DNA of 64,000 nucleotides from Loxodes magnus (taxonomy: Eukaryota > Ciliophora > Karyorelictea > Loxodida > Loxodidae). The DNA is taken from the NCBI GenBank assembly GCA_946699065.1, contig CAMPDV010000124.1:310001-374000 (forward strand), given 5' to 3'. The translations under genes were made by a program, and so were the position numbers. Numbering within the stretch: position 1 is the stretch's first letter; every line of letters begins with the position of its first letter. Below the pieces are notes generated by a model, which was not told the origin of the DNA, made no database searches, and saw only the letters and a program-made list of their open reading frames with translations. Below are positions 10,101 to 50,180 of the stretch, piece by piece.

Positions 10101-13100
10101 CCTTTAATTATAGAATAATAGAATTAATAGTTTAAAAACTAAGTGATTATTAAAATTGAGCAAGCAAATGTCAAAGCTGAGTAAATCATACTTATGATTA
10201 ATTCAATAGCTGATTCACAAGATCTTATCAAATTTGCTCTCACTTTGAATGAAGAAAATCTACAGTAGATGTAGGATAGTGTGAATTACTACGATGATTC
10301 CTCAATAGACACCTAAAAAGTACTAGACTTTATATCCTTATGGTATTTCATTTAAGAGCTTAAAAAGAACATTCAATAGTTTTAAAGATTTTGCTAGTTT
10401 ACTAATAAAATACTATAATCCAAGTAATTCAATAAGGTATTCTAGCAGATAAAGGCTTGTAACTTCCTAGTCAATAATTTAAAAGATTTGTTCGAAGAGC
10501 TAAACTTGAAGGAAGAGGTAAAGATAAAGCAAATCATAAGCATAATGAAGAACTCAAAAATACAGTTTCTAAAATATTAGCATGACTAGTATTACTATGT
10601 CTAAGTTAATTATCAGAACATATTCGAAAATAATGAATCTAAAGAGATTTTATTAAAAATAGAAAATCTAGAGGAGCTAAGAGATAGAGCTATGCTTATT
10701 GACTAAACTAGCAACTTCTAGAGTAATAATCAGGAGATCGAGGAGGAAAAAGAAGAGTACGAAGTGATTCAAAAGAAGATTAAATCATATATTTAAAGCG
10801 CTTAGGACTAGTAGTTTATTAAGTCCTATATAGAATTCTTTCATCATTTGAAGTATACTTTATAAGCAATCAACTACTTAATAGAATCAGGCTTTCCTAA
10901 TTTATAAATCCCTTAAGTATTCGATATTATTAACTGCTAATTTCAATAGCTTGCAAAATATGAAGAATAATGTATAAATAAACTAGATGAATGATAACTA
11001 ACACTCCTTAGAGCTAAGAAATAATGCTACTATCTTACTTTTCTTAATGGAGAGATGATTTGGATAATGGAAGATTATTTAGTCAAACGAAATAAAAAGG
11101 TTGAAAATATAGCTTTCAACTTCTTAAAGCTAATGAACAAGAAAGTTGAGTAGCCATTCTTTGATCAGCAGCTTTGTAAAATTGTAGCTTCTTTCCAATC
11201 TAATAGCATTGAAGAAAGACTATAGAACTTGAATCAAATAATAAGCTAGTTACCAAACGTTGAAATAGAGTAAGTAAACCTAAGTAAAAATATGGTATAA
11301 AAGAAGAAGTTTGTTCCAGGTAATCAAATTTCTTTTTTCTACGTTGAGAATTAAAACTACATTTGTTCTTTACTCTCAATGTTCTGTGTAGTTTGTAATA
11401 ATTTTAAACCTAGAGCTGATCTCATATTATTCTGCAATGATTCTACTACCTGAAATGAAGTTTATAGCTTTCTTTACAGAAGTAGGCTAAATTCAGATTA
11501 ACTACATGTGCTACTCAAGCCAGAGTAACTAACTAATAACGTCTAAGAATTTTTAATAGCTGAGCTTCAAAGCATTATCATAAAAGAACTATAAGTGAAT
11601 GAAAGATCTTTTAAACTAGGCTTTTTGACTTAAAATTCGAACTCCTAAATTTCATATTTTATTAAATATTCTAACTTTACTTACATAATGAGAAGCGACT
11701 AGCAATTATCACTAGAAGAGTTAACTTAAGTGATCTAATCTCTTGATTCAACTTCAGTTTTAGTTAAATCACAAATAGCAGGTTTAGGAAAGACAACTTT
11801 GATTAAAAAGAATTTATCTAAATAGTAAGTAATAGAGTTTCCTTTAAGTGGAGAGATAGATATCCTAGAGATAGGTGAGAGATTATAAAAGATTCAGTAG
11901 AGTCCTTACAATCTATTAGTACTTATTGACTTTAACAGAAAAAACGAACTAGTAAATGATATCATCTTCAGTTTATGCTTATTGAGAAAACTCTACTATC
12001 AATCTAATGTATTTACACTACCTAAAGATACAGTCATATTTATAGAACTAGCTAATGAAACCTATCAAGCTAAGCTGAATTACCTGAATTGTATGAAGCC
12101 AGTGTATGTGAACACCTTTGATATTAATAATTTAATAGTTGATACTAAAATTTCTACAGTTTGCAGCTATCTCTAATGCCTATAGCAAAATACTCTCGAT
12201 AGTGTATAGCCAGCTTCTAATAATATGCTTCAAAAATAAGTCTGCATTAATCTACTTAATTAATACTTTTTAGCTAAGTAGACTTAAAAGGGATAATAGT
12301 GTACTTATATTCAGCTGAATATATACATCAGTATCTTATACGAACTTATCGAAAATATGGAAAAATCTATTTTTAATATAAGTTTAAAGCCTTTATTAAA
12401 GTAAATCTAGCCTAATATCAACTTTTCTAAAATTAGAACTTTAATATTTCAAAGCTTTCTAGAAACTGTCGAAGAATTCACTACTAAAAGTATTCAAAAT
12501 GTTAGAAAATCTTAGAACTAGTCACTGAAGTTCTAAGAAGATCAGAATAATAAGGAAGATATTGATAAAGAGATATTAAGTGAAGAAAGTATAAAAGTAA
12601 GGTGGGAAAATTCAAACCATTTCATTTATCTAATTACAGAAACTTATAGTCCTATACCACTCTATAAAGAAAGTAATAAAATTCCAGCAGAAATAAAGTA
12701 ACTAATTCTATCTCAATAAGCAATAAATAACTAGTAGAAATTAGACGAATATTCTTAATTCAGTAACGAGTAGTTCATTAAGAAATTAGAGATATTCTGC
12801 AAAAAAGTTAACCCTCAGTTCTTAAAATAATGTACTGAAGCTAACTATGTTCTTACAGTAGATAATTTCTTGAAGATGGCTTTAATCTACATGAGAGTAC
12901 TAGCTAAAATACCTGTTATTATAATGGGCGAAACAGGCTGTGGAAAGACTTCACTGATTAAATTCTTTGTGGAAAAGGTTAGATAGGATCATTTTATGCC
13001 ATTTAATATTCATGCTGGTATTACTTGTGAGATGATCTGCTAAGAAATAGAAAAGTTAAAGCAAAAGGCAACTGAACTGAATGCTTCTAAATAGAAGCTT

Positions 13101-16100
13101 TGGGTTTTCTTTGATGAATTTAATACTACTGAAAATGTACCTCTAATATGTGAAATACTATGCTATAGGACATTCAAAGGGTAGAAATTACCTGAAAATG
13201 TGGTATTTTTAGCAGCATGCAATCCCTATAAAGTTAAAAGGAAACAAATAAACTTCGAAGAAAATGTAGGAATACGAAGAGATCGCTTTAAGTAATAGAA
13301 TCTGCTTTACACAGTATATCACATACCAGATGCAGCTATAGAATATATATGGGATTTCGGCTTCTTATAAAGAAATGTTTAGCTTGACTATATTTCTCAA
13401 ATTCTAAAAAAGGACATAAAGAATAAGTAATTGGAGCAATACTTAACTAGATTAATAGATGCAGCTCATGAATATTTCAGAGATAAAGAAGATTGTAGTA
13501 GTGTTAGCTTGAGAGATGTGAGTAGGTTTATTATTCTATATGTATGGTTCAAAGATTAGATAAAATAAAAGTATGAAATATAAAACAGGTAAAACTAAAG
13601 ATCTTATTATACATATTTCAACTTTTTTAGAAGCCTGTAAAGATAAATCTAATATAATGGTTCCGAAGAATAATGGGAATTAGAAGCAGGTCTGCTCTCT
13701 TTTTGTCATTGCTATTACTTAAGACTGGCTCATTTAGATTAGAGAAAATAATTCTTATAGGTCACTATTGATTAAATCAATTATACTAGATAGAAAATAA
13801 ATTCCTAGTATGTTATTGAATTAATGGAAAGAGAGCAATATGATTTACTTGCAAGAATGGAAATACCTAAAGAAACTGCTTTGAACTAGGCACTTAGAGA
13901 AAACATTTTTGCTATAATACCTTGTGTGGTCAATAGAATTCCTATATTTATATGTGGCAAACCTGGTTGCAGCAAAACTTTAACTATCAATTTGGTTTTC
14001 CAACACTTGAGAGGATTAAAATCCGTAGATCCTTATTTTAAATGTCTTCCTGAATTATAAATAGTTCCTTTTTAAGGATCTGAATCATGTACGTCTGAAA
14101 ATATACTGAAAGTATACGAAAGAGCATAAAAATATACATAAGCCAAGAACAGTTAAAACTAAAAGCTTCTACCAGTGATTGTTTTTGACGAGATAGGATT
14201 AGCAGAAATATCAAAGCATAATCCTTTGAAGGTATTACATAGCATATTGGAAGTAGAAAGCAGGGATATTGCATTTATAGGAGTTTCTAACTGGAGATTA
14301 GATGCCTCTAAAATGAACAGAGCTTTATACTTAGCTAGGCCTGATCCTGATTAAAAAGATCTTATTTTAACTGCTTAGACTTTGTATAAAAGTTGTGCTA
14401 ATTCTAAAACCACGATGCAGCATGAAAATGTAATAGAAGCATTAGCTAAATCCTACTTTGATATGAAATAAGATATTTAAAAAAAATTTCCAGAGTATAT
14501 TGACTACTATGGACTGAGAGACTTTTACAGTCTTATAAAAATGGTATCAAGAAGGTTTATCTAGTTAGATTAATAAAAGTAAAATACTTTAGATTATTTT
14601 ACTAAGGAAAAAGAATTATTTAAAATAGTAAAAAACTCTATTGAAAGGAATTTTAGTGGCAATAGTAAAATTAACGGAGTTTAAATATTTTAAAGTTATT
14701 TACTATAGAATTACGATTGCAGTCATGTTTATCCTCATATTGAAAATACTCCTACGTTATAGCTAATAGAAGAAAATCTTTAGGATAAGAATGCAAGATA
14801 CTTAATGCTTATTAGTAAAAGCGATATTGCTACTTACATTCTGGATAAGAGGTTGAAAAATTCTATTAAAGATAGAAGATTTCTCATTGGAAGTAATTTT
14901 GAAGATGATTAAAATTAAGAGCATTATGGTTTCAGAAGTCTGAGCGACTGCATTCTTTATATGGAAAAGGGAATATCAGTCATCTTCAGAAACATGGAGC
15001 ATATCTACAGCAGTTTATATGATCTATTTAACTAAAACTTTGCAATCTAAGTAGGAAAACGATACTGCAGAGTAGCTTTAGGAGCACTCTACAATCCAAA
15101 ATGTATAGTTCATGAAAACTTCCACTCTATAATATTTATGGAGGATAATGAAGATATCCTTAAGAAAGCAGATCCACCTTTCTTAAACAGATTTGAAAAG
15201 CATTACTTATCTATAGAATAAATACTTACATAAGAAGAAAATAATATTAAGCAAGAAGGAATTAGATTCATATAATAGCTAACTCAATTTCCACATAGGC
15301 CTAATTGCTTATTAGCCATTTCTTTAAATACTGCTTTTCCTATTTACAGTGAAGAAAACTTAGCCTTGCTAATCTTTTAAAATCTAGAATAGGTAAATTA
15401 GAAGCAATCTTTATAAGATTTAAAGAGAGAGTTAATTAGAAACAGCTCAATTGATATACTAGCACTTCTTTAGTTTGCTAATATTGATCAAAATGAAAAG
15501 GACTGAATTATACAGTAATATAAAGAACTACATTAAGCCTCTTTTAAAGATATAGTACTAGAATTTTTGCAGCCTAATTAAGAATAAACATCACAGAAGC
15601 TTATCGTGTATAGTTTCTCTAAATTATCCTCTTTCGACTTTACTCAAAATTTAGCAGAAAATGGAAATATTAACTAAGGCGAAAATCTTAGAAAGCAAAT
15701 TCATATAAAGAGGATAAGTGAGTTTAAGCAAGAAGAAGACTATATAAAGGATCTTTAGGCATTTCTCAGTTCTACAGAAAAAATCCTTTATATTTTAGAG
15801 CTAAATTTTGAAACAGAGCATCAACATTTATATTACTTAAAGTTTATGATTGAAAAACAAGAAAAAGAATGCAAAAAGAGCATCTCTATTAGGAAGTCAT
15901 TCATATTAGTTGTAAGGCTCTAAAGGTTCTAAGAATATGACAGCAATAACGCGAAGCTATTTTAAGGATGGAAATAGATGATGATTGAAAATTTTAATGA
16001 GAATCAGTTTGATATAATAAACCCTCTAATAAGCAAGCCTTCGTTAGAATTAATAAGAAATCAGTAATTTGTAAAGTTCAAGAATATCATAATAGATATA

Positions 16101-19100
16101 CTGGAGAGAGCTCTATTGAAGCTAAACTTAGACTAATAAAATTAAAATTAGAACAGTAAAATAAAGGATGGAATTAACTTCTTTATTGAATACATTAGCC
16201 AAGATTAATCACTTATAAATATCTTCTTTGGAAAATGCTTAAAGTTGCTAGAAATCCAGCCTTAGAAAAAAGATTGGAAAAAAGAAGTTTTATTCAATCC
16301 TCAGATTACAAAAGTAGCAATTTCTTTTAAAGAAGCCATTGAGATCTTTATTAAACAAGAGTTGGAAGTACCAATGACTACTATAACTAAATATTTAATC
16401 TAAGTTGGACTTATTACCAGTTTCTTTACCTTTTAAGATAAAGAAGAAGGATAGATAATCAGAAAAATCTGGATCAAGCTTTTTGAGCAGAAAAATCTTA
16501 AAGGTGAAATTCTTTAAAACCTTCCATAAGGAAACTAAGTCTATTTCCTTTCAGGTCTTAAGTTTCCTTTTAGCAAATTCGAAAATGAAGCTCTTAATAA
16601 AATTTACAATCAGCTGGCAAAAGAAAATACGTTTGACGAAGTAAATTTAGAAGAAAAATTCAGATAAGATTCAGAATTTAGAGAATTCTTAGGGGACTTA
16701 GAAAGTAACGAGTAGTTAGTTGATTTATATCTAGCAGATTTAATTAAATGCTATATCTAATAAGATTAGTTGCTGGACGAGAGTTATGAATAGATCTTCT
16801 TGAAATTTTTCAAGTAATGAATTACATTTCAAGTTCAATAGCAAAATATAGAAAATACTTTCTATAAGAAGGTCTATACCTTTTTAAGATAGCGATAACT
16901 AATTAAAATCATTTGTGAGGCTATCAAAATCATTCTATCTTTCACTTAAATAAATTTGGATTCACTTTTAGATATCTAGAGTTTGGTTTAAAAAGTTACT
17001 GTATAAGCTAATTAATGTGAAGGAGAAGATTAAAACTAGCAACTTCAAGAAGGGGAGGTAGAATCGAATTAACCAGAACAAACCTATATCTTTGTAAGTG
17101 AAATAATTTAAAGAGGACTATATTAAATGTTTTTATATCACAAGAAGGTTACCAACAATAATTTCAAGATATATGTGGCTGAGTTAGAAAGATTGGAATC
17201 AATAATACAGAAGATAACTCAAAGCCTATAAATTAATAACTTCAACTAGTTCCAATATTACATCCAATCTACTAGATTAGTCCTGTCTAGCAATTAAAAG
17301 GATGTTAATATACTAAAATCCCTATTTTAAAACTTTAAATCAGACTAAGATTATAGAAACATTATTTTGGATGATAATCTTAATAAAGCTTTAGACCAAA
17401 TTCAAAGTAATGAAAAATTGATTGCTTAGAGATTGCATTTTTTGATTAAAACAAGTAGCTCATAAATAATTAAAGTGGCTTAGATTCTAGAAAAGTAAAA
17501 AAATTACATATAATTCGATGAAATAGTTCAGGATATCATTTAATAATCAAACATAACATAAATCATTTTGCATAATGAATTTATAAATTGAAATGAGGGT
17601 GGAGTTTTATAGATCCCTTAGTTGAATCCATATATTTAAGATTTAGATTAGACATTTAATTAAGAGAAAGTAACTTGTAAACTAGGAGTATTATTATCAG
17701 ATAAAATAAAAGCATCTTATTTAAATGAGCTTTAAAGTGGAAGATATAATAATCCTTTTGAGAATTAACCTCTTTTTCTCTAGTTCTATTTAAGGACTAT
17801 TGTTGATTGTGAATAATAACAATAAAACGTAGAGATTAGAAATGTGAAAATACTTATTTCGTTAACAAGAATAAAAATGATACTGGACTTCTATTCTGAA
17901 TAGCTATATTATCTTAAACTATAACCTGATTAGCAGGACAATTGGCTATTAGAAGCTACTCTAGAAAGAATCGATGAAATTTTATATAGTTCAAGTTTAG
18001 TTTCTTTAATGTCAGTATACATAGCTAAAAAAATAAAGTATATATAAGATAATTAATTTAAGAAAACTTACCAATTGAACGAACAGCAAACACTCAAAAA
18101 GTTTATGTAAGATATACTAGAAAGATGCTAGAATTTAAGGTGAACTTAGTATCTTTTAACTTAAAATTTAGAAATAGATAAAAAGTAAATTGATCTTCCT
18201 ATTTTAGATTAATAGAATAATATGGATGTAATAATAATATAAAATTGACTATCTTAGCTTCATAATGCTGATTAAAATATATTATAAAGGATATAGCAAA
18301 TGGAATAACCTGAAGTCAAATTCTCTTTTGGAGTAGCTTTTATAGAAGTGATTTATATTAAGTACTTATAAGAAGAAAATCGAAACTTACTATAAGCATA
18401 AGATAAATTAGAAAAGCTATTTAAGCAAACAATACTATAAAAAGCAGGCCAAGAATATTATAATTTTTTGTACCAGTTAATTAGTAACTTTTAGGATAAA
18501 AAACTAATGCAGATGAAATATTAAATGAGCTTAGATGGCTACTAAGAGAAAATAGTAGTACTTTACCTTACTTTAATTCTTATTTCTTATAAGTAAAATG
18601 ATAGCTTAATTAACCTTTTCTTCAAAGGAGGGTAGTTTACTATATCATAATTTTAGTCTTCTTTCTTATTTGGAGTAGAAGATAATTTCAAGCTCTAATA
18701 TTTAAGAAATTTGTTTAATAATTTTGATACTCTTAAAAACAGTGGTTTCTGGTATCCAGGTGTTGTAGGTTCTGCCTGGAAATGCTCAAATGATTGTCCT
18801 TATCTATATTTTGTTATGAATTGTGGTGGTTAAGTAAATGAAAGAGAATGTCAATGGTGTGGCTAGAAAATTGGAGGTAAAAATCATACAGCTGTTTAGA
18901 GGCCAGGCCATGAAAATTTAACTGATTAACAAGCTAAAAATTATTTATAAAATCAAATTGAGAAAATGGAAGCTAACTAATTAAAAGGCTATTTCCATTT
19001 ACAGACACCAGGTATTGGAAAAGAACAAAATAAAAGTCTAAAGCCTATCTCCTTTTAGCTTTTAAGATTAATCCTCCATATACAAATTTTTGGACTATAC

Positions 19101-21149
19101 TAAATAAACATAATAAATTAAAAAGATTTAGAAGTAATAATACCACATAAATAAAGTTGCTAACAGCAATTACAAAAAGATCTTGAATAGTATCTATAAT
19201 GCCATATAGCAAAAGATCTTTAATCAATATACGAACTGTTATAAGATGATAGATCTTATGTATGAATATTCTAGGTAATTTAGCAAATATTAACCAATAT
19301 TTAGTAAAAATCCCCTATGATCATGTAGAATCTTAATTCAGAATAATAAAAAGAAAATTTTTAAATTAACTTTTAAAGCCAAATAGTTGATATCTTACTG
19401 AATAAGCAGTAAGAGATAAAAAAATAATATGATGTGAAGAAACTTGCTATTTAGAAAATGAAAGAGCCATTTGATGTAGTCATTAATGAAATTAGATGTA
19501 TTGATAACTAAGAAGGATTTAAATATTTAAAGCTATTCAGAATTACTAAGAAACCTACTTTCGAAAGTATGAAGTATTAATTTGATTTAGAGCTAAGAAA
19601 CTAACCTGGAAATAAGCTACTAGAAATATGCTTTAATGTTTAATAAAAAGCTTAAAAACTAAAAAAATTTTTCCCTATCTTAAGGCTGGTGAAGCTTTTA
19701 AAAGAGAAATATGATTATATGATATCAAGAGAAGATGCAAGAATGATAAAAATGCAAGATGTTTGCAATGAAGATGAGGAAATAAACGAAGCCTTTCAAA
19801 AATTTAAAGAAGCAATTAAATTTTTTGGTTCAAAACCTTTACGAGTTGGTTGTAAAGAATTGTAACCATTAAATTATGATGAAAGTTCTGATTTAACTTC
19901 GTTACTAATAGATGATAAGGAGTAAGGAGGAGCAATTTTTTTAGTAGCAGTTTTAATGTCATTAGGCAAAACTTAAAATAAATTATTATAAGCAATTTTA
20001 GAAAATTATCAGAGTGAGTATAATATAAAAGACCCATAAGAAATAGAAAGAATTGCATGCTCTATTTTAAAAATCAACGAAGAGCACATTTTAAATATAG
20101 ATTTAGAAGATCCAGAGTACTATTAATTAGCTATCTGTAATCCTGAGTACGGAAACGGAAAACAAAACATTATTTTCGCTTTTGATTAAATAAAAACCAA
20201 AATAATATCATCTCTAACCCAAAAAAAAAATTTAGATATAAAAAACATACAATTCATAAACTACCAATTTGAACTTCTTAGTTCAAAAGGCTCATAATCA
20301 AGCTTAATACTGGATATTAGATAAAAAATTCCTTAAAAACCTATGGAAAAAGATTTGAAAATATAAGTAGATACCTATTTAACAAATAGAAGTACTGACA
20401 GAAGAGATTAATTATAAGAGATAATGCGTCCAGAATAATAATTAAAACAGCTTCTAGGATCACTAGATAAAATTATGTGCTAATTGAAAGATTAAAAAGT
20501 TAACTCATAAATGAAGATAAACCAATTCTGTAAAGGATAGAATAAATAGATGTATGGTAATGTAAATGAATGCTTTAAAAAAGATTCAGAAATATTAGGA
20601 CAAATTACTCTAGAAAACATAATTAGCTTATATGAACTAATTGAAGGAAAATGCTTCTAGTTTATTTTCAAAAATCTAAGTCCTGATTATTGTTAGTAAT
20701 TAGAAAACATGGACAATCTTATTTTGAGTTACTTTAGTAAAGGAGAAAATGAAAAAGAAAGAATTTTTACTAAAAGGTAATTACAAGAAGCTATGAAAAA
20801 GTTTATTATAAGATACTTATAAGTAGAATTGGTACCAAAAGAATAACTTATTATTTACCTAAGTAATGAATAATTTTGGGATGAAAAGCAATTAGGAAAA
20901 ATTGAATTCTTAGAGGAAAATTTCAGTCCTGATATCTAAATTCAACATTCTAAGTGCGCTTATTAATCACTTGATAAGTTAATTTAAGAAGAACATATGA
21001 AATTAACTTAATAAACTGATTAAGTATCAAAAAGGAATGATAATACAAGTTAGATAAGAGGAGGAGGCACCAATAGAAGAGGCGGATTTAATGGAAGAGG
21101 TGGAAATGTATCAAGCAAGATAGGCCATAAAAACACTACCAGACTTTGA
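7110..21149 (+). CDS. RNF213/mysterin-like AAA+ E3 ubiquitin ligase, intact, 4,679 aa
   Basis: This is a giant dynein-like AAA+ ubiquitin ligase of the RNF213 (mysterin) family, which ubiquitinates proteins and, in animals, lipopolysaccharide on microbes. One frame runs from ATG 7,110 to UGA 21,147-21,149, exactly 4,680 codons; human RNF213 is about 5,200 aa. UAA/UAG are used hundreds of times as Gln. At least a dozen in-frame UGAs sit where Trp fits (e.g. 7,143, 7,170, 9,060, 9,099). I see none in the last ~600 codons before the stop. AAA+ landmarks: a degenerate P-loop AGLGKTT (~residue 1557), GETGCGKT (1940-1947) with Walker B FFDEF (D2002/E2003), and GKPGCSKT (2283-2290) with VIVFDEIG (D2360/E2361). 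The last two match the active AAA3/AAA4 pair of the family. An RZ-type zinc finger (about 3,890-3,925; C-x3-C, later C-x2-C, ending KIGG) follows the linker region. I saw no canonical RING, and the tail ends in a Gly/Arg-rich RGG-like segment (21,060-21,110). The start is supported by coherent coding right after it. No introns were needed. Decayed relatives are scattered through the window. Confidence 0.94.
18777..18884 (+). other. RZ-type zinc finger of the RNF213-like protein
   Basis: This sub-feature of the large gene encodes about residues 3,890-3,925. It starts with WKCSNDCP, continues to a CGG turn, and ends with ECQWCGQKIGG. The order (Cys pair, then a CGG, then a C-x2-C-G pair followed by an IGG) is the signature of the RZ finger shared by RNF213 and ZNFX1, which is required for RING-independent ubiquitin transfer by RNF213. 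A Cys stands at the second ligand position where His is usual in animal proteins. The decayed copy at 37.6-41.66 kb keeps an alignable version at about 40,745-40,850. Confidence 0.75.
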
Positions 21150-24541: not shown

Positions 24542-25854
24542 TCAACTTGCAATCTTCCACTTTCTCAAAGTATTGTCATTAGCTCCCGATACTAACCATC
24601 TATTATCCTTACTCAATGCTATAGATTTTATATATTATTTATGTCCTTATAGAATCTATATGCATTCACCTGTCTTAAAGTTCCATATTTTGATTGTATT
24701 ATCGTAAGATCCAGAAAATATAACACTTGAATCAGTACTAAGCTGAACACTTGTTACAACATCTTGATCTTGGAGATTATGAACTAGCTAGCCATTAGAA
24801 AAGTTCCATACTCTAATTGATTAGTCATAAGAACCTGATATTATGTAGTTATTATCCAAAGACACAACTACCGAATGTACATAACTTAAGTGCCCGAATA
24901 GAGTTCGAATAAGCTGACCAGTCTGGAAATTTCAGATCTTTATCGTTTCGTCTCCGGATGCTGAGCTAATTCATTTCTAGTCACTTGTTACTGCCACCGA
25001 TCAAACTGAATTCGTATGCTCAGCCAAAGTTCTCGTACAAGTTTCAGTCTGGAAATTCCAGATCTTTATCGTTTTATCTATACTTCCTGATACAATTCAT
25101 TCCTGTTACTTGTTAAAGCTAACGATAAAACTCCATCCAAATGTCCTATCAAAGTTTTCATGCAGCTTCCCGTCTCAAAATTCCAGATCTTTATCGTTTT
25201 ATCTACACTTCCCGATACAATTCGTTTCTGGTCATGTGTGATTGCTACCGATAAAACTGAACCATAATGTCCTTTCAAAGTACTTTTACAGCTTCCCTTA
25301 TTAAAATTCCAGATCTTTATCATTTTATCTACACTTCCCGATACAATTCATTTCTGGTCATGTGTGATTGCTACCGATAAAACTGAACCATAATGTCCTT
25401 TCAAAGTACTTTTACAGCTTCCCTTATTAAAATTCCAGATCTTTATCATTTTATCTACACTTCCCGATACAATTCATTTCTGGTCATGTGTGATTGCTAC
25501 CGATAAAACTGAACCATAATGTCCTTTCAAAGTACTTTTACAGCTTCCCTTATTAAAATTCCAGATCTTTATCATTTTATCTACACTTCCCGATACAATT
25601 CATTTCTGGTCATTTGAAATTGCTATCGAGTTAATGAAAGAAGTGTGTCCAGTCAATTTTTAATCTAAAATAATTAAAGAGATACCTTGAGATTAATTGT
25701 AGCTGATCCTTTTTACTAATTTATTTAAGCACAAATTAGGCAGGATTTCATATTTTAATACAAGAAGAGGGATTCTTCTAATAGAATGATTTCATTGTTT
25801 TAAGCATTTTCGTAAAAAAATAATTTTAGTAAATTGTGTTTCTTTTGTCTCCAT
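24542..25854 (-). CDS. WD40-repeat protein, about 437 aa, with one apparent base deletion
   Basis: The minus-strand frame from ATG at 25,854 (MET KETQ...) gives an ~85-residue N-terminal region and then a run of WD40 blades. Each blade carries the GH dipeptide (LTGH, LKGH, LIGH, LFGH, LQGH) and an IKIWNF strand end, as expected for a beta-propeller scaffold. Near 25,099-25,103 one base is missing relative to the sister repeats; after shifting frame the blades continue cleanly to the end. The gene is therefore a young pseudogene, or the deletion is a sequencing error. UGA encodes Trp at several conserved sites: DQK-W-IVSGS in the repeated blades, SV-W-SVA, and one IKI-W-NF where the other blades use TGG. 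The end is a UGA at 24,542-24,544 or the next one at 24,530-24,532. An N-terminal F-box was looked for and not seen. Substrate or partner unknown. Confidence 0.86.
25200..25640 (-). repeat. 126-bp tandem repeat encoding identical WD40 blades
   Basis: Four copies of a 126-bp unit (42 codons, one blade) lie head to tail, with the marker acttcccg recurring at about 25,207, 25,333, 25,459 and 25,585. Three are almost identical in DNA, while blades further toward the C-terminus share only the protein pattern. This indicates recent expansion by unequal exchange within the WD40 gene. Period is a multiple of three, so frame is kept. Confidence 0.88.
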
Positions 25855-27997: not shown

Positions 27998-30900
27998 ATC
28001 CTATAAATAAACAAATAAATAACAATCTAATAAAAAAAAGCCTAAATGATATAAAATATTTACATAAATTCTCTTCAATAAATTATTTACTTTCTTTAAA
28101 AATAGATCAATACCACCTTTGAAATTTAAACTTTTACCATCTATAAATAGTTGAATCAACTTACATTCTATAAATATTTAGAGTATCTTACCCTCTAGAA
28201 ATATTCTAAAATTTTACCGCCTATGAATATAAAAATAGCTTACTATCTAAATTAGTTATATTATCTTACCTTCTATGAATATTTAGAGTATCTTACCCTC
28301 TAGAAATATTCTAAAAGTTTACCGCCTATGAATATAAAAATAGCTTACTATCTAAACTAGTTATATTATCTTGCATTCTATAAATATTTAGATAATTTTA
28401 CTCTCTAGAAATATTAAAAAATTTACCGCCTTTGAATATTTAAAATAGCGTACTATCTAAACTAGTCATATTATCTTGCATTCTATGAATATTAAAAATA
28501 GCTTACCATCTAAAATAGTCATATTATTTTACCTTCTATGAATATTTAGAGTATTTTACCCTCTAGAAATATTCAAAAAGTTTACCATCTATGAATATTT
28601 TAAATAGCTTACCATCTATAAATAGTCATATTATCTTACCTTTTATGAATATTTAGAGTATCTTACCCTCTAGAAATATTCTAAAAATTTACCGCCTATG
28701 AATATAAAAATAGCTTACTATCTAAACTAGTTATATTATCTTGCCTTCTATAAATATTTAGATAATTTTACTCTCTAGAAATATTAAAAAAATTTACCGC
28801 CTTTGAATATTTAAAATAGCGTACTATCTAAAATAGTCATATTATCTTGCATTCTATGAATATTAAAAATAGCTTACCATCTAAAATAGTCGTATTATTT
28901 TACCTTCTATGAATATTTAGATTGCTTTACCCTCTAGAAATATTCAAAAAGTTTACCTTCTATGAATTTTTTAAATAGCTTACCATCTATAAATAGTCAT
29001 ATTATCTTACCTTTTATGAATATTTAGAGTATCTTACCCTCTAAAAATATTCTAAAAATTTACCGCCTATGAATATAAAAATAGCTTACTATCTATAAAT
29101 AGTCATATTATCTTGCATTCTATAAATATTTAGATAATTTTACTCTCTAGAAATATTAAAAAAATTTACCGCCTTTGAATATTTAAAATAGCGTACTATC
29201 TAAAATAGTCATATTATCTTGCATTCTATGAATATTAAAAATAGCTTACCATCTAAAATAGTCGTATTATTTTACCTTCTATGAATATTTAGATTGCTTT
29301 ACCCTCTAGAAATATTCAAAAAGTTTACCTTCTATGAATTTTTTAAATAGCTTACCATCTAAAATAGCCATATTATCTTACCTTCTATGAATATTTAGAG
29401 TATCTTACCCTCTAGAAATATTCTAAAAATTTACCGCCTATGAATATAAAAATAGCTTATTATCTAAACTAGTTATATTATCTTGCCTTCTATAAATATT
29501 TAGATAATTTTACTCTCTAGAAATATTAAAAAAATTTACCGCCTTTGAATATTTAAAATAGCGTACTATCTAAAATAGTCATATTATCTTGCGTTCTATA
29601 AATATTTAGAGTATCTTACCCTCTAGAAATATTCAAAAAATTTACCATCTATGAATAATTAAATTACTTACAGTCTATAGATAATTAAAATATCATGCCA
29701 TCTATAAATATTATAAAAATAAAACCATCTAATTATTTTAAAATACTTCCAATCTATAAATCTTTTAAATATCTCACCCTCTTTATATTTAAATAACTTA
29801 CATGCTATAAATATTTAAGATACTTTATCGACTATTATCATTTAGAATATATTACCGTCTATATATATTAAATCTATCGTACTATCTATAATAATTTAAA
29901 TTATCTTACTGACTTTTAATATTTAAAATTCCTTACATACTGTAAATATTTACATAGCTTACAGTCTATAATAATTTAAGATGAATACCGCCTATATATA
30001 TTTCAAATATCTTACTGTCTTTTGATTTTAAATAATTCACAATCTATAAAATTTTAAAATATCTTATCTTTTTTAATGATGAAATATATACCCTATTCTA
30101 ATTTTAAAAAATTAACTTTCTTAGTTTATTTAAATATCTTACTCTCTTTATAGATAGAAATTGCTAACCCTCTAATATATTTAAATATCTTACTTTCTTT
30201 ATAGATTTGAAATTGCTAACTCTCTAATGTATTTAAATATCTTACTTTCTTTATAGATTTGAAATTGCTAACCCTCTAATATATTTAAATATCTTACCCT
30301 CTTTAAAAATTTAAAAATGCCTACAATCTATAAATATTTAAATTACTTACTCACTAAATATTTGAAAGTATCTTACATTCTTTAAGTGTTTGAAATATTT
30401 TACAGTCTTTATGATTTTATTTTGGTTACATTCTAAATTTTAAATATCGCACCGACTGAAGTTAATTATTATATCTTACTTTCTGAAAATATTTAAACCA
30501 TCTAACTATCTATATTTATTGGAAATATATTACAATCTATAAATAAAAATGCTTACCAGCTAAAAATTTTTTAAATAGTTTACATTCTGCAATATATAAA
30601 AGTGCTTACCATCTAGAGAAATTTAAAATAGTTTGCCTTCTTCGAATTTTTAAATAAGCTTACCTTCTAATTCTATAAATGCTTAAAAAAGCTAACCCAC
30701 TTTAGCAATTTAAGAAATTACACTCTGCAAATATTTAAAAAAACATGCAGTCTATAAATTAATAAAAGATTACCTTCTATAAATTTTAAAAAGCTAACCC
30801 CCTATAATTTAAAATAATCTTACATTCTAAAAATATTTAAATTATTTAACCCACTAAAATATAAAAAATATACGCTCTTTAAATATTTAATAAAATTTGC

Positions 30901-31981
30901 TGTCTTTAAAAAATTAAAACTTTACAATCTGTATCAAATCAAATACCTCCTTTTTTATTATTTACTCCCTATTTTATAAAATTACTTCCTAAACATAGGG
31001 TATCTTACTTTCTTCATTTATTATTTTACTATCTTTTTTTATATGATTACAAACTTCTTTAATTTTTACATTCTAATTTGAATTTTTACTTTCTTTATTA
31101 GATATTTTATTACTATCTAATTTTAGATTGTTACATTCTTGTATTAAATGCATTACATTCTAATTTTTTAAATATTACTCTCTTCTATTAAATATAGTAC
31201 TGACTTTTTTAAAATTTACCTCCTATATATTTATTAATAACTTTCTTCGAATTCAAAACTGCCTTCAATTAAATTTTTTATACTTTCAACTAATTTATAA
31301 GACTATTATACTTTCTAATTTTTAAAAATGCTCTACGTTCTATTATTACATTATTTACTGTATTATTCACGCATTTTCTTCAAAACTGAATTGATTACTC
31401 ATTACTTTCTATCTTTAATTTTTTACAACCTAAATTTAATCTAATTTCTCACTTCCTAAAATTTGTCTTTAGTTACATTTGTTAAAAATCATTGTAAAGA
31501 AAACCTTATATTCACCTTCCATTTTTGCTATAATTTGCTAATTTTCTTAATAATTTCCTTATTGATAAAGTTCAAAAAATTCAGTCTTGATTTTATAAAA
31601 TCTTTCTATTTTATTTTTTAGTTGCTAAATTGTTCAGCCTTCCTCTATTTCTAAGTCTAATTTTGATTCATTTTAAGTCATAAGTAGAATTTTAATTTTT
31701 TTTAGTTTTGCCTATAAAGGTATCTCATTTTTTATTTCTTCGAAATTTTTTTATTTCTATTCGCTTTCACTTGAGATAATTGCTTAGTTAGCAAAACATT
31801 TTGGATCAGATAAGGTAATTTTTTAATTCTCTCTTAATGAATGAAAACATTAACTATTATATTCGTAAGATTCAAGAGAACAAAAATCACATGGTTAATG
31901 ATCACAAGGAAGAATATCGAAAATTCTTGATAGCGTATCTAAGTGACATAAACATGTGCCACAACTATTAGGAATAGACAT
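27998..31981 (-). CDS. RING / ubiquitin-like protein with an acidic tail encoded by ~125-130 single-codon exons
   Basis: Exon 1 (31,981 down to 31,477; 505 nt) starts with ATG and encodes 168 residues plus one extra base (phase 1). Residues 7-34 carry a RING-type pattern: C-x2-C, 15 residues, C-D-H-x2-C-x2-C, with the typical LPC(D)H(Q)PC block. The last two zinc ligands are atypical (C45, H47 or C62). Residues 95-168 have a ubiquitin-like pattern (KIKILL strand, TIQQLKNKIE helix, FELYQQGN turn, YKVFFTMIF last strand); UGA codes W116. The region to the left is an array in which AG, a triplet and GTAA recur about every 26-27 bases on this strand. Splicing every unit in the phase left by exon 1 gives pieces such as RDYKLEWEDQLEEDESDYK, then repeats of DEEDEYSEKYSEED, without UGA. 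The first UGA after the array would be formed across the junction into the triplet at 27,998-28,000; the true 3' end could lie as far as about 27,936. Likely a RING-type E3 with an acidic disordered tail. RING-Ubl exon confidence is high; splicing is inferred. Confidence 0.78.
28087..31460 (-). repeat. Array of ~125-130 tiny intron-like units separated by 3-nt exons
   Basis: On the minus strand almost every unit reads GTAA(G)-body-(T/A)AG, then three free bases, then the next GTAA. On the plus strand this appears as TTAC-NNN-CT. Unit length is usually 26-27 bases in the left part and often about 18-27 in the right part. The three bases vary freely in the older right half (AAG, TGG, ACA, GGG, CTG, TCG and so on) while the flanking AG and GTAA stay, with occasional GCAA, GTTA or GTGA donors. 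The few longer exons (30,090; 31,050; 31,180 areas) are 6 nt, still multiples of three. I counted about 57 units from 28,087 to 29,580 and about 70 from there to 31,460. A few units are damaged (for example near 30,065, and a GG donor near 29,750), so some introns may be merged. Confidence 0.85.
28261..29580 (-). repeat. 14-unit higher-order repeat of 370-371 bp within the micro-exon array
   Basis: The same series of 14 intron-plus-triplet units recurs with starts at about 28,261, 28,631, 29,002 and 29,373 (spacing 370, 371, 371), the last copy being partial. Copies are close to identical apart from scattered substitutions. Spliced in the inferred phase each copy adds 14 residues, DEEDEYSEKYSEED with Y/D variation. 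The genomic period is not divisible by three, whereas the spliced period (42 nt) is, so a change in copy number would preserve frame only if the units are spliced. Confidence 0.87.
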
Positions 31982-45682: not shown

Positions 45683-48598
45683 TCAAAAATATTTATCTTC
45701 ATTTATACTTTAATCTTCAGAACTACTCTTCTCTTATTAATAAAGCCCTCTTTCTGTCTATTATGAACAGATTTCAAGATTACTCTCTTAGAAAGTTATT
45801 TAACCTATTTAGTCTTATTTCTATATCTTTTATGATTTTAAGTTTTCTTCATTAATATCCTATTATTCATTTTTATTATCTACAACACTTCATTTTTCCT
45901 TCAAAATATCTATTTTATATTTGAATGTACCAATGTCAGGCCTTTAATTTGGTTCATAACTGAAGCATTATGTTAGCAGATCAACTAATTAAGCTTCTTG
46001 ATTTATCTCATTTGAAAAGCAAGGATAGCATTTATCTAAATAAACTGATTTCATTACTTATGCATTAGTTATTAAATTTGGATATGGTAGCCTTTCGTTA
46101 AGTATTTCTACAGTTACACAAGCCAAAGATCAAATATCACTTTTTTGATTAACTTTGTTATTGAAGATTTCAGGAGCCATTCATTAATATGATCCTTTTT
46201 ATTCTAAAGTAGTAGTAATATTTGCTTCTCTAACTAATCCGAAATCAGCTATTTTAGAGGAATCGTTGTTATCTAATAAAATATTAAGTGATTTTATATC
46301 TCTATGAACTAAACCTTTTTAGTGTATTGCTTATACTCCTTCAGCTATCTCACTTATTAACTTAAGCTTTTTAAAAAATCTAAGTTAAGGATCTCTCATA
46401 TAATCTGCAAATAACTGCTAAGATTTTATTAAATTGAATAAGTTTCCTTTATCCATGTACTCAGTATAAAAACAAAAACTATAGTTGCCTTATTAAGATG
46501 TATCAAAAGTAACTCCTTTTAGTTTTATTATTCTTTAACTGTTAACACTCAAAAGAGCTTTGCATTCAAGAAAGAAGTCTTCATATAGTTTTTGAGGATT
46601 ATCAATTTCTCTTATTTTTTTGAGAGCATACTAAAATCCATTTATGTTTATTAAATAAACAGTACTATATCCTCCTTATCCTATTACTTTTAAGCTATTC
46701 ATATATTCTTAGTTAGGAATCAAATCTTTATAGTCTCATATACGAATTTAGGATTTAATATCTTTACTTGCTCCATTTGATTATAGTAGTTAGTAAATAT
46801 CATCCATTGTTATTATCTTTTAAAAATTATTCATTTATACTTCTGAAGGAACTATAAAATTAGGATTAAGTTGATAAGCTGAAGCATAACATTAAATAGC
46901 TTCTTTAAATCTTCCTAAAGCTTTTAGAGAGTTTCCTTTATTTATGTGTCGATTAGAAAAAAGAGGATTAATTTAAATGGCTTTGTTAAAACAATCTATA
47001 GCTTCTTCGTACTTTATTAGTTCGGCTAAAGAATATCCTTTGTTGTTATATGCTGAATCAATTTTCGGATTTATTTGAATAGCCAAGTTATATGCTTCAA
47101 TGGCTTCTTCGTATTTTTTTAACTCGGCTAAAGCTATTCCTTTGTATAAATATGCTGAATCATCTTTCGGATTTATTTTAATAGCCAAGTTAAAAGCTTC
47201 AATGGCTTCTTCGTACTTTCCTTATTTCCGCAAAGCATTTCCTTTGTTGATATATGCTTTATCTTTTTTCGGATTTATTTCAACAGCCAAGTTATAAGCT
47301 TCAATAGCTTCTTCGTACCTTTTTAATTCGTCTAAAGCTATTCCTTTGTTGAAATATACTTCATCTTTTTTCGGATTTATTTTAATAGCCAAGTTATAAG
47401 CTTCAATGGATTCTTCATACATTCCTTATTTCTGCAAAGCATTTCCTTTGTTGAAATATACTTCATCTTTTTTCGGATTTATTTCAATAGCCAAGTTATA
47501 AGCTTCAATGGCTTCTTCGTATTTTCCTTATTTCCGCAAAGCATTTCCTTTGTTGAAATATGCTTTATCTTTCGGATTTATTTGAATAACCAAGTTAAAA
47601 GCTTCAATGGCTTCTTCGTATTTTTTTAACTCGGCTAAAGCTACTCCTTTGTTGTTATATGCTGAATCATATTTCGGATTTATTTGAATAGCCAAGTTAA
47701 AAGCTTCAATGGCTTCTTCGTACTTTCCTTATTTCCGCAAAGCATTTCCTTTGTTGATATATGCTGAATCATATTTCGGATTTATTTGAATAGCCAAGTT
47801 AAAAGCTTCAATGGCTTCTTCGTACTTTTCTTATTTCCGCAAAGCTACTCCTTTGTTGTAATATGCTGAATCATCTTTCGGATTTATTTGAATAACCAAG
47901 TTAAAAGCTTCAATGGCTTCTTCGTACTTTCCTTATTTCCGCAAAGCTACTCCTTTGTTGTAATATGCTGAATCATATTTCGGATTTATTTGAATAGCCA
48001 AGTTATAAGCTTCAATGGCTTCTTCGTATTTTTTTAACTCGGCTAAAGCATATCCTTTGTTGAAATATGCTGAATCATCTTTCGGATTTATTTGAATAAC
48101 CAAGTTAAAAGCTTCAATGGCTTCTTCGTACTTTCCTTATTTTCCCAAAGCTATTCCTTTGTTTATATATGTTGAATCATATTTCGGATTTATTTGAATA
48201 GCCAAGTTAAAAGCTTCAATGGCTTCTTCGTACTTTTTTAATTCATCTAAAGCTATTCCTTTGTTGTTATATGCTGAATCATTTTTCGGATTTATTTGAA
48301 TAGCCAAGTTAAAAGCTTCAATGGCTTCTTCGTACTTTCCTTATTTTCCCAAAGCTATTCCTTTGTTGTTATATGCTGAATCATTTTTCGGATTTATTTG
48401 AATAGCCAAGTTAAAAGCTTCAATGGCTTCTTCGTATTTTTTTAACTCGGCTAAAGCATATCCTTTGTTGAAATATGCTGAATCATATTTCGGATTTATT
48501 TGAATAGCCTAGTTATAAGCTTCTGTTGCTTCAAATTATTTTTTTTATTTCCTAATAACATCACTTTTTTTTATTTGACGAGATTTACCATTTCCCAT
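45683..48598 (-). CDS. TPR-repeat protein kinase, intact, 971 aa
   Basis: The frame runs from ATG 48,598 (MGNGKSRQIKK...) to UGA 45,683-45,685, 972 codons without a shift. Residues ~20-590 are about 17 TPR units of 34 residues with the consensus KYEEAIEAFNLAIQINPK-D-SAY-NKG-AL. A linker of about 50 residues follows, then a kinase domain (~640-905): GQGGYSTVY glycine loop, YALKK (Lys ~660), LVHRDIKSLNILL (Asp 767), DFGLVRE (Asp 785), QWMAPE and SDIWSLAC. Both of the last Trp codons (46,181-46,183 and 46,130-46,132) are UGA, as is residue 903. All catalytic residues are present, so an active Ser/Thr-type (possibly TKL-like) kinase is expected, with the TPRs as a protein-binding platform. An N-terminal MGNGKS could be an N-myristoylation signal (M-G-x-x-x-S); this is inference. 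Stop choice: UGA at 45,683 is the first UGA after coding character declines. No intron needed. Confidence 0.93.
46860..48540 (-). repeat. 102-bp tandem DNA repeats encoding the TPR units
   Basis: The TPR-coding DNA consists of about 17 units of 102 bp, many differing by only a few bases, with the marker cttcaatggcttcttcgta on the plus strand recurring every 102 (once 99) bases. Several units alternate between two versions (ALAELKKYEE and ALRKQGKYEE), suggesting that blocks of two or more units were duplicated together. The C-terminal three units are more divergent and presumably older. Short plus-strand frames here are antisense shadows. Confidence 0.92.
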
Positions 48599-50180
48599 TT
48601 TTTTAATTTTTTTAGAGTAAGCTATTTTAAATTTTTTTTATCTTTTAAAGAAATTATCAAATTAATTTATCTATTTAGTTTTATCTTTTTTTCTTACATT
48701 TTTTTTTTATTTTTTTTATAATTAAAAATAAATTTTATTGTTTTGAGCTTTTAGATTCAATAATTAACTTTTAATTTAAACATTTTTTTAAATTTTATTT
48801 TTTAATCTTTTAACTTCTTTTTTCTTTTAGCTTTTGTTTTATTATTTTTCTAAAATTTTGATATGATATTTATATAAATTTATATGTTTGAATCATTTAA
48901 TATTAGTTATAATTCGTTAAATGATATTAGCATTAAATATTGAATAAACTTAGGAATATAATTAAATGGATATTCAAATTAAAATTCTTCAATTTGAACA
49001 TAAATTTAAAGCCTTATAGTGTAAAAGTTTTTTTAATTCAGTTAATGAAAAATAAAGCTAAGATTATTATTTAGTAAAATAGTCTTTAAGTATATTTATG
49101 AAAATATCCTTTGCTAACCTATTTATTTAGATTTTATCTTATTTACTATTTATTTTTTGAATTTCATTAATTAATGCTTAGACTATTTAGATTTATATTT
49201 ATTTTAATTGAAAAAAGATTGGTTATATTTAAAATTTAACAATTATTTATTTAGTAAAATAGTCTTTAAGTATTCTATTACAGAAGTAAATAATTTAGTT
49301 ATAGAAATATAAAGATTAAATATATTTTTTGTTAATAAAGTAACTCATAAATGTCTACTAGAATTATGCTTTGATAGTAAGCTATAAATTTAGTAAATAT
49401 CTTCTTTATATAAATTTTTCTATCATTTTAATATAAAATTACATTAAATCGATAGAAGTCTTTATATATTAAATTGCTTCTAAAATAATAAAAATGCTTA
49501 GTTTTTAAGCATTTTGGATTAATTCTAAAGCTAGATAAGATATTTCAAAGATATACTATTTATTTTTATTTAAAAAGGTAAAAGTAACTAAGAAAATAAA
49601 ATTAGGTTACTATTTTTAATTTATTAATAAACTAAAAGAAATATACCAAAAGTTACATTTTTATCTTTAGAGTTTATTGGATTATTAATAAGAGATAGAA
49701 AAGGCTCTTTGCAGCTATTATCTAGATAAATTCCCCCTTTTTATGATGCTAGACTTCTTTAAATTAGTTAAAAACTATGATAAACTATGCTATTATTACA
49801 TCAACAATTAGCTATTTTTTTAGTTATTTTCATTCTCTAGATTAAAAAAGATAAATTAAAGATATTCTTGCAAGTTTTTCTACTGTTGGCTTAATAAAGT
49901 TATTATACTTAAAGGACTAAAGCTAAATAAATTATACAAGTAAATTATTTATTAAAATACTCATTTTCTGGTTTAGAAGGTTAAAAATTAAGAAAAATCA
50001 TTCCTATTTAAAGGAAAGAAGCAGATTGTTTACTAATAATTCACTTAAACATAGATCTTTAAAATACTAAAGTAAATTAATTTATTATATAAATAATTAG
50101 ATGCTTAATAATTTAAATATAACTAGCTTAAAGCAAGAAAATAAAGAATACTAACTATTTATGTTTAAACTAATAATAAA
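48599..50180. other. No gene recognised
   Basis: This stretch lies upstream of the TPR-kinase start, so it should hold its promoter; no motif is identifiable. A/T runs dominate 48,600-48,900. Some blocks after 49,000 may be extremely decayed members of the lineage seen at 41.7-42.4 kb, but I cannot align them securely. A short plus-strand frame at 48,500-48,721 is antisense to the N-terminus and low-complexity. Confidence 0.5.

Follow-up and report, generated by a model that had tools for sequence, protein, structure and literature searches.

Tandem arrays of predicted single-codon exons in a RING/ubiquitin-like gene family of the ciliate Loxodes magnus

Introduction

The micro-exon genes (MEGs) of Schistosoma mansoni form gene families that encode variable proteins and contain runs of very short, symmetrical exons which keep the reading frame upon skipping (PMC4015677), their exons measuring 3-81 bp and their introns up to 5 kbp (PMC10526429). 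Here we describe a 64,000-nucleotide (nt) stretch of the ciliate Loxodes magnus (contig CAMPDV010000124.1; G000:C124:310001-374000), referred to as the window, which harbors on its minus strand a gene with a long array of AG- and GTAA-bordered units. As judged from sequence comparison, the array very probably represents spliced and translated single-codon exons that make up the tail of a RING/ubiquitin-like gene family. As in MEGs, very short exons divisible by three constitute much of the predicted coding region of the arrays (1,746 of 1,924 internal exons). MEG exons are, however, described as varying in size between long introns, whereas the predicted exons of Loxodes are nearly all one codon in length and are separated by introns of mostly 16-25 nt; the long introns of MEGs were not found in the arrays. 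Furthermore, the young Loxodes arrays take the form of minisatellites, in which the introns are nearly identical and the codons vary, and their gene codes for a RING and a ubiquitin-like domain. Secretion by way of a signal peptide and isoforms that arise from exon skipping are further traits of schistosome-type MEGs; exon 1 of the Loxodes gene opens with a RING.

Isolated exons of 3 nt have been reported before, two of them in lipS of Dactylellina haptotyla (PMC5639578) and one of 3 bp in human RPS24 (PMC12686416, PMC11162997); in the relevant parts of these papers they are single cases and never arrays. Short introns, mostly of 15-25 nt, are described in ordinary genes of L. magnus and heterotrichs, and introns of L. 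magnus identified by RNA sequencing (RNA-seq) have a mean length of 19.3 and a mode of 17 bp, with 93% not exceeding 25 bp (PMC11441545). The available sections of the latter paper describe no chains of single-codon exons, and they name 'orphan introns' in a figure legend without explanation. Among the titles and abstracts examined, mostly from the open literature, no report of single-codon-exon arrays was found.

A constant repeat unit combined with a small, information-carrying variable part is known from transcription activator-like (TAL) effector repeats and from CRISPR arrays. This likeness is an analogy only and homology is not claimed; in Loxodes a putative intron would stay constant and a codon would vary. 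In introners and in intron gain by tandem duplication one intron sequence is multiplied many times, whereas in Loxodes the multiplication is tandem, takes place within one gene and lies nearly always at one-codon spacing.

Results

Anatomy of the array gene

The array gene starts with an ATG at 31981 and has its first donor at 31476. A preliminary description, made from the sequence alone, had placed the array directly behind a 505-nt RING and ubiquitin-like exon ending in phase 1, and this arrangement was reproduced. The following features were assigned, all on the minus strand and in window coordinates.

31477..31981, minus strand: exon 1 with a RING-type zinc finger (weak in the window copy) and a ubiquitin-like domain, 505 nt, ending in phase 1 (Pfam and parse)
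31636-31634, minus strand: in-frame UGA in exon 1, taken as Trp
30929..31476 (right border approximate), minus strand: 5' constant zone with about two dozen predicted short introns, exons mostly single-codon plus conserved 27-nt and 21-nt exons (12-paralog alignment)
31385, minus strand: conserved 27-nt exon (paralog comparison)
Within the 5' constant zone, minus strand: 21-nt exon near the array start (by homology)
28134..30928, minus strand: variable array of tandem units, each of one predicted codon and a mostly 22-24-nt intron (parse)
About 29,700-30,928, minus strand: older, diverged section of the variable array
28,134-29,669, minus strand: younger section of the variable array, with a 371-bp higher-order repeat
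27998..28133, minus strand: 3' constant zone, which holds the final short exons and the candidate stop (parse and paralog comparison)
28026-28024 and 28000-27998, minus strand: candidate stop, an intron-split UGA with T from ATT and GA from GAT; the ATT/GAT layout recurs in the paralog L010
27942..27997, minus strand: possible extra intron or introns in the 3' untranslated or end region, ambiguous (the parse reaches 27942, and a homologous 36-38-nt segment is present in the paralogs L010 and L029)

Within the array, 86 of the 94 GTAA motifs have an AG upstream at exactly three bases, which bears out the spacing first noticed on this strand. Outside the array the same holds for 17 of 287 GTAA on the minus and 16 of 287 on the plus strand, and the counts are approximately flat across all spacings. 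The gene was further divided into exons and introns by a frame-neutral chain parser, in which exons longer than 3 nt carry a small per-base cost. This parse yielded 134 introns, with 122 of 133 exons being three bases long, while a parse confined to exons of 3n yielded 132 introns and 122 three-base exons out of 131, close to the 125-130 units originally counted. Restriction to 3n+1 or 3n+2 led to scores of 85 and 20, respectively, as compared to 1042. Between 2 and 12 three-base exons were obtained from 20 dinucleotide shuffles, none from the opposite strand and at most 8 from each of 34 other 3.5-kb segments of the window. Harsher splice-site weights, used in two earlier parses, had yielded 84 and 99 three-base exons; before the final parse they were relaxed for GC donors and for a C ahead of the acceptor.

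Predicted intron length was 16-25 nt in 130 of 134 cases (any-length parse), and the borders in the 3n parse were GT-AG in 118, GC-AG in 13 and GG-AG in one. That the rare longer exons measure 6 nt had been stated as well; three-base exons do dominate, but 27-nt and 21-nt exons lie near the array start, and the parse holds a few pieces of 9-30 nt where a splice site was lost. The peptide RDYKLEWEDQLEEDESDYK, predicted beforehand, was exactly recovered in the spliced 3n parse, and the predicted tail is acidic (58 D/E and 33 K/R among 194 residues, in a parse that extends beyond the likely stop). The 371-bp higher-order repeat was taken to comprise 14 units of 26-27 bp each; the repeat lag in the parse is 13 units, two units being merged there.

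We propose that the array encodes the C-terminal tail of a RING/ubiquitin-like multigene family, in which nearly every tail codon would be an exon of its own. The tiny GT-AG introns, mostly of 16-25 nt, would be excised singly by intron definition and presumably sequentially, because neighbours lie too close to each other for simultaneous spliceosomes. Exon 1 would set the phase in which the joined triplets are read, such that a codon consists of the last base of one triplet and the first two of the next. Since each unit comprises an intron and three coding bases, duplication, loss, recombination and exon skipping would alter the protein by whole codons, and the tail would evolve as a coding minisatellite with homogenized introns and a codon string that is hypervariable between paralogs.

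Predicted exon lengths and splice sites among paralogs

For array work 22 family loci were chosen (the window, L010 and L023-L042). Since the start codon failed the filter in L036, L040 and L041, these were excluded from the alignment and from a parse of the remaining 19 loci, and out of the 19 alignable loci 12 paralogs were picked for the main alignment to cover divergence, with the intron map defined on L029 and transferred by alignment to the others. In the 5' constant zone exon length varied in none of 23 exons, whereas intron length varied in 22 of 24 introns and in all 22 changed modulo 3. The acceptor AG was kept in 285 and the donor GT or GC in 282 of 288 cases. Pairwise differences amounted to 1.6% at AG, 3.9% at GT, 11% at donor positions 3-4, 24.3% in intron interiors and 20.5% in triplets. 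No gaps were found in exons, the 27-nt and 21-nt exons being free of indels, as compared to 2.2% in intron interiors. In the frame-neutral parse from exon 1, 1,633 of the 1,924 internal exons in the 19 loci were 3 nt long and 1,746 were multiples of three.

These unit lengths also bear on the idea that translation runs through the unspliced array and yields a solenoid-like repeat of nine residues (27 nt) with one hypervariable residue each, the constant 24 nt reflecting protein constraint. In several young arrays the unit is indeed 27 nt, or nine codons, of which eight are constant and one is variable, and by our own reading the 24-nt consensus is free of UGA in all frames. In the window, L010, L025, L026, L032, L037 and L041, as well as in the 5' constant zone of the 12 paralogs, unit lengths are mixed and include lengths that are not multiples of three, so that no unspliced frame could hold, and the unspliced frame of the window reaches several UGAs shortly after exon 1. 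An unspliced solenoid was rejected on the unit lengths and is considered highly unlikely.

Genome-wide occurrence and the satellite alternative

The spacing pattern was searched in the L. magnus genome (705,730,643 bases in 7,843 contigs), which agrees in size with the published macronuclear (MAC) assembly of 706 Mbp (PMC11441545); a minority of the matches was inspected individually. Two consecutive AG-N3-GTAA units matched 63,956 times as compared to 5,251 for the reversed pattern, and three consecutive units 49,911 times as compared to 775, a periodicity for which a whole-genome scan had been suggested in the preliminary description. With three units at a spacing of four bases 1,044 matches were obtained (406 in the reversed control), and at a spacing of two 1,072 (1,731 in the control). 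At longer unit lengths (28-44 nt) 18,242 matches versus 61 were obtained, many of those listed being two short units taken as one. Very roughly, about 1,100 arrays are estimated for the genome, at about 45 triple matches for each array sampled; this number is inflated, because contigs are redundant and the sample covers mainly one subfamily. L001-L008 (chains of at most two units), L011 (three) and L012 (five) were chance pattern matches after inspection of both strands and were removed from array counts.

Low-complexity repeats account for much of the matches listed at spacings two and four (contigs C165, C272, C55 and others).

An ordinary satellite or minisatellite, unspliced and with a monomer that contains AG-N3-GTAA by chance, would fit the near-perfect tandem repeats of 26-27 bp seen in young arrays, and tandem repeats make up 231 Mb of the L. 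magnus MAC assembly (PMC11441545). Such an origin is nevertheless very improbable. AG and GT are the best-conserved positions over diverged paralogs, the three-base spacing is kept in loci with unrelated monomers, and spacings of two and four yield little beyond low-complexity matches. Moreover, the array follows the ubiquitin-like exon in sense orientation in all 28 inspected loci that have both an array and a visible start. A satellite spread over the genome and drifting at AG and GTAA had been named beforehand as the observation that would speak against splicing; as far as this was examined, the inspected loci show neither a gene-independent position or orientation nor a uniform drift of the monomer, and satellite DNA was rejected on orientation, conservation and spacing. 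Elimination of the units as DNA, in the manner of internal eliminated sequences, is unlikely as well, because the genome agrees in size with the MAC assembly, from which eliminated DNA would be absent.

Arrays behind ubiquitin-like domains

The RING and ubiquitin-like exon has at least 150 matches in the genome at E<=0.001 (150 of 394 candidates scored). An array lies downstream and in sense in 21 of the 22 family loci, including L036 and L041, where the ubiquitin-like domain followed by an array was seen on later inspection; L040 is a family copy without intact array, truncated by an insertion. Splice sites have decayed in another copy, L046, whose RING is damaged and which contains inserted elements; it retains 34 intact units per 2,040 bp as compared to 43-72 in ten other copies, a drop that is explained in part by the insert itself.

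Sequence resembling a short interspersed element (starting with GATGGTGGGAGC or GATGGAGGGAGC) is found upstream of the array genes L046 (G000:C6:135500-141000) and L009 (G000:C2:2784000-2789000) and also inside the decayed array of L046.

The same layout was observed in loci found by the pattern. In all seven with a visible start (L009, L045, L048, L049, L051, L053 and L054) the array starts at most about 150 bp from the end of a ubiquitin-like domain, and together with the 21 family loci this accounts for the 28 mentioned above. The introns of these seven are built from different monomers, of about 26-34 nt or of mixed short lengths. Since the layout recurs with unrelated introns, it appears to have outlived a complete turnover of intron sequence.

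Matches to the Pfam ubiquitin model, several of which fall under Pfam's own cut-off, had E-values of 1e-4 (window), 3.5e-5 (L029), 6.7e-7 (L009), 2.3e-11 (L049), 3.8e-7 (L054), 5.1e-4 (L053), 1.1e-9 (L051) and 4.8e-6 (L045), and only 0.012 in L048. RING models matched at 1.1e-5 in L029, 4.6e-6 in L010, 4.9e-5 in L009 and 0.0043 in L045; in the window zf-C3HC4 reached E=0.036, with the last Cys of the pattern missing by alignment. Judged by eye, L053 seems to have a RING, in a stretch truncated at its start, and the middle parts of the pattern-found loci are coiled-coil-like. AlphaFold modeled exon 1 of the window with low confidence (mean predicted local distance difference test score, pLDDT, of 47), the strand-strand-helix-strand of the ubiquitin-like domain reaching about 70 and the RING remaining below 50. 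Among 45 candidate relatives in the protein database none reached E<=0.001, which is unsurprising for a genetic code with UAA and UAG as sense codons. From the two domains, our guess is that the protein is an E3-type ligase with a variable tail.

In L049, L050 and L052 (G000:C10, C16 and C23) the chains are not homogenized and have mixed introns, and the parse assigns 61, 49 and 85 three-base exons to them, respectively; the arrays of L050 and L052 start beyond the examined stretch. The predicted spliced tail of L032 (G000:C256:98700-107000) contains a long run of Asp-Leu dipeptides from alternating single-codon exons.

Evidence for a probable translation in the exon-1 phase

In the preliminary description the array spliced in the phase of exon 1 was said to be free of UGA. 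In L. magnus UGA encodes Trp except near the 3' end of genes, where it is a stop (PMC11441545), and since UGA is thus a sense codon away from the 3' end, the argument is weaker than had been supposed. UGA is indeed depleted in this phase, but it occurs in exon 1 (31636-31634), at the first junction of the array (T, followed by GA after the intron) and at the likely stop. A first count gave 12 UGA among 1,246 codons in the exon-1 phase and 114 of 1,331 and 122 of 1,246 in the other two, with a mean of 24.8 (16-33) in 200 shuffles; it took in near-identical paralogs as well as L009 and L045, for which the phase was assumed. The recount on 16 representative loci, without L009 and L045, gave 9 UGA among 966 codons as compared to 87 and 92 in the other phases. 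When the order of triplets was shuffled, the mean was 18.8, and one of 500 shuffles was as low as 9.

Amino-acid changes between the 12 paralogs point in the same direction. Their mean BLOSUM score is +0.04 in the exon-1 phase and -0.65 and -0.64 in the others, and the ratio of nonsynonymous to synonymous differences (pN/pS) is 0.55 as compared to 0.72 and 0.66, or 0.46 as compared to 1.03 and 0.59 in the single-codon stretch. The peptide predicted for the constant zone in this phase, WEEIFEIMRKQYEQRESQNDFEKRALKKYWKYYETRDE in L029, is recognizable in the window as WSQILKKMREQYKQIESSFEFEERVKKQYKKFYKRRKD. In the window and in L010 the candidate stop codon is the intron-split UGA.

If the units were spliced, but the region remained untranslated or were mostly removed as one block, the triplets would be by-products in a 3' untranslated region or a regulatory RNA. 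Triplets are nearly as divergent as intron interiors (20.5% and 24.3%) and a stop codon was not placed in many paralogs, both of which would suit such a role. The exact 3n length kept by all 23 exons in the 12 paralogs despite a modulo-3 drift of the introns, the absence of indels from the conserved 27-nt and 21-nt exons, the phase-specific depletion of UGA and the constraint on amino acids argue against it, and we regard this alternative as improbable.

Codon variation inside arrays

Among 23 loci inspected, 22 arrays had enough units for comparison, and in all 22 the triplets were more variable than the introns. Nucleotide diversity (pi), computed on units of modal intron length only, was 0.51-0.66 for triplets and 0.003-0.37 for introns, with ratios from 1.4 to 188. 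In the window the values are 0.51 and 0.37 (31 units with 24-nt introns), and in the older arrays, the window and L010, intron pi is 0.34-0.37. One common 24-mer is the consensus intron in 21 RING and ubiquitin-like arrays. L039, for example, has 58 units with 11 different triplets but 5 intron types, and in the ten arrays with intron pi below 0.1 about 8-9 times more distinct types per site were counted in triplets than in introns, the number of types being a floor on the number of mutations. Near-identical paralogs differ through insertions and losses of whole codons and through block duplications (L029/L030; L025, L026, L036 and L041).

Neutral tandem duplication alone should not be able to separate sites that share one genealogy. 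The excess in triplets would thus reflect either diversifying selection on codons, or homogenization of introns unit by unit, or a constraint on introns that acts in young arrays and is absent from old ones. We tentatively suggest, as a possibility that is more doubtful than not, that the arrays are a device for diversification at the codon level, by which a family of perhaps 1,000 genes rewrites its tails codon by codon under diversifying selection, and that an individual gene may yield a large set of in-frame isoforms through stochastic skipping of single-codon exons.

Discussion

That the array consists of single-codon exons and takes its reading phase from exon 1, as first put forward in the preliminary description, is supported by the parses, the genome-wide spacing, the exon lengths and splice-site conservation among paralogs, the depletion of UGA, a modest constraint on amino acids and the recurrence of arrays behind ubiquitin-like domains. 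Several observations weigh against this view. We know of no precedent for about 130 consecutive introns separated by 3-nt exons. In the window 13 introns would need GC-AG and one GG-AG borders, and the splice-site weights of the parser were set by hand after such arrays had been seen. The parser assigned phase 1 to the first donor of 17 of the 19 loci and phase 2 to that of L024 and L028, where the aligned donor nevertheless sits at the homologous site. Confining exons to 3n makes the parse collapse in L032 (27 versus 1261), where about 700 bp of other sequence separate the second unit from the rest of the chain, and lowers it in L039 (594 versus 944); the introns of L009 carry an inner TTAG that permits a parse with 15-nt exons. 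The differences in pN/pS are modest, one wrong phase (0.59) lying near the predicted one (0.46), and the tail of exon 1 is not a clean control (0.69 in frame versus 1.36 and 0.67). No stop codon was located in paralogs of the L029 type. Finally, the dominant intron of homogenized arrays, with 24 nt, lies above the modal 17 and is a multiple of three, and multiples of three are depleted among RNA-seq introns of L. magnus (PMC11441545).

If confirmed by transcripts, these genes would represent an extreme architecture with more than 100 one-codon exons per gene and, by rough extrapolation, about a thousand arrays. They would set a new lower bound for serial work of the spliceosome and offer a natural setting for studying intron definition where exon definition plays no part, with introns that serve as frame-keeping spacers that allow coding sequence to grow and shuffle in the manner of a minisatellite. 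The excess of variation in triplets over introns would then be an unusual, testable mark of individual codons being selected or changed in a targeted way. As a guess, some of the tandem repeats and 'orphan introns' of this genome may be due to the arrays, which may also be the reason why standard gene prediction would miss such tails.

Other features of the window

The array gene ends about 7 kb away from an RNF213-like giant E3 gene of about 14 kb (7173-21149, plus strand), which is apparently intronless and matches RNF213 structures with an E-value of about 1e-104 over one open reading frame (ORF). The RNF213-like gene keeps one frame with 266 TAA, 126 TAG and 11 TGA codons, the last TGA perhaps being the stop and the in-frame UGAs being read as Trp. 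An ORF on the plus strand at 40129-41238 matches an RZ-type zinc finger weakly (E=4.5e-5) and may be a second gene, or gene fragment, of the RNF213-like kind. A WD40-like ORF on the minus strand (24616-25629) adjoins a 126-bp repeat of 4.6 copies with 93% matches (25053-25629), and a tetratricopeptide repeat (TPR) protein is encoded on the same strand at 46739-48892, in which a 102-bp repeat present 15 times (47001-48523, 86% matches) constitutes an expanded coding repeat.

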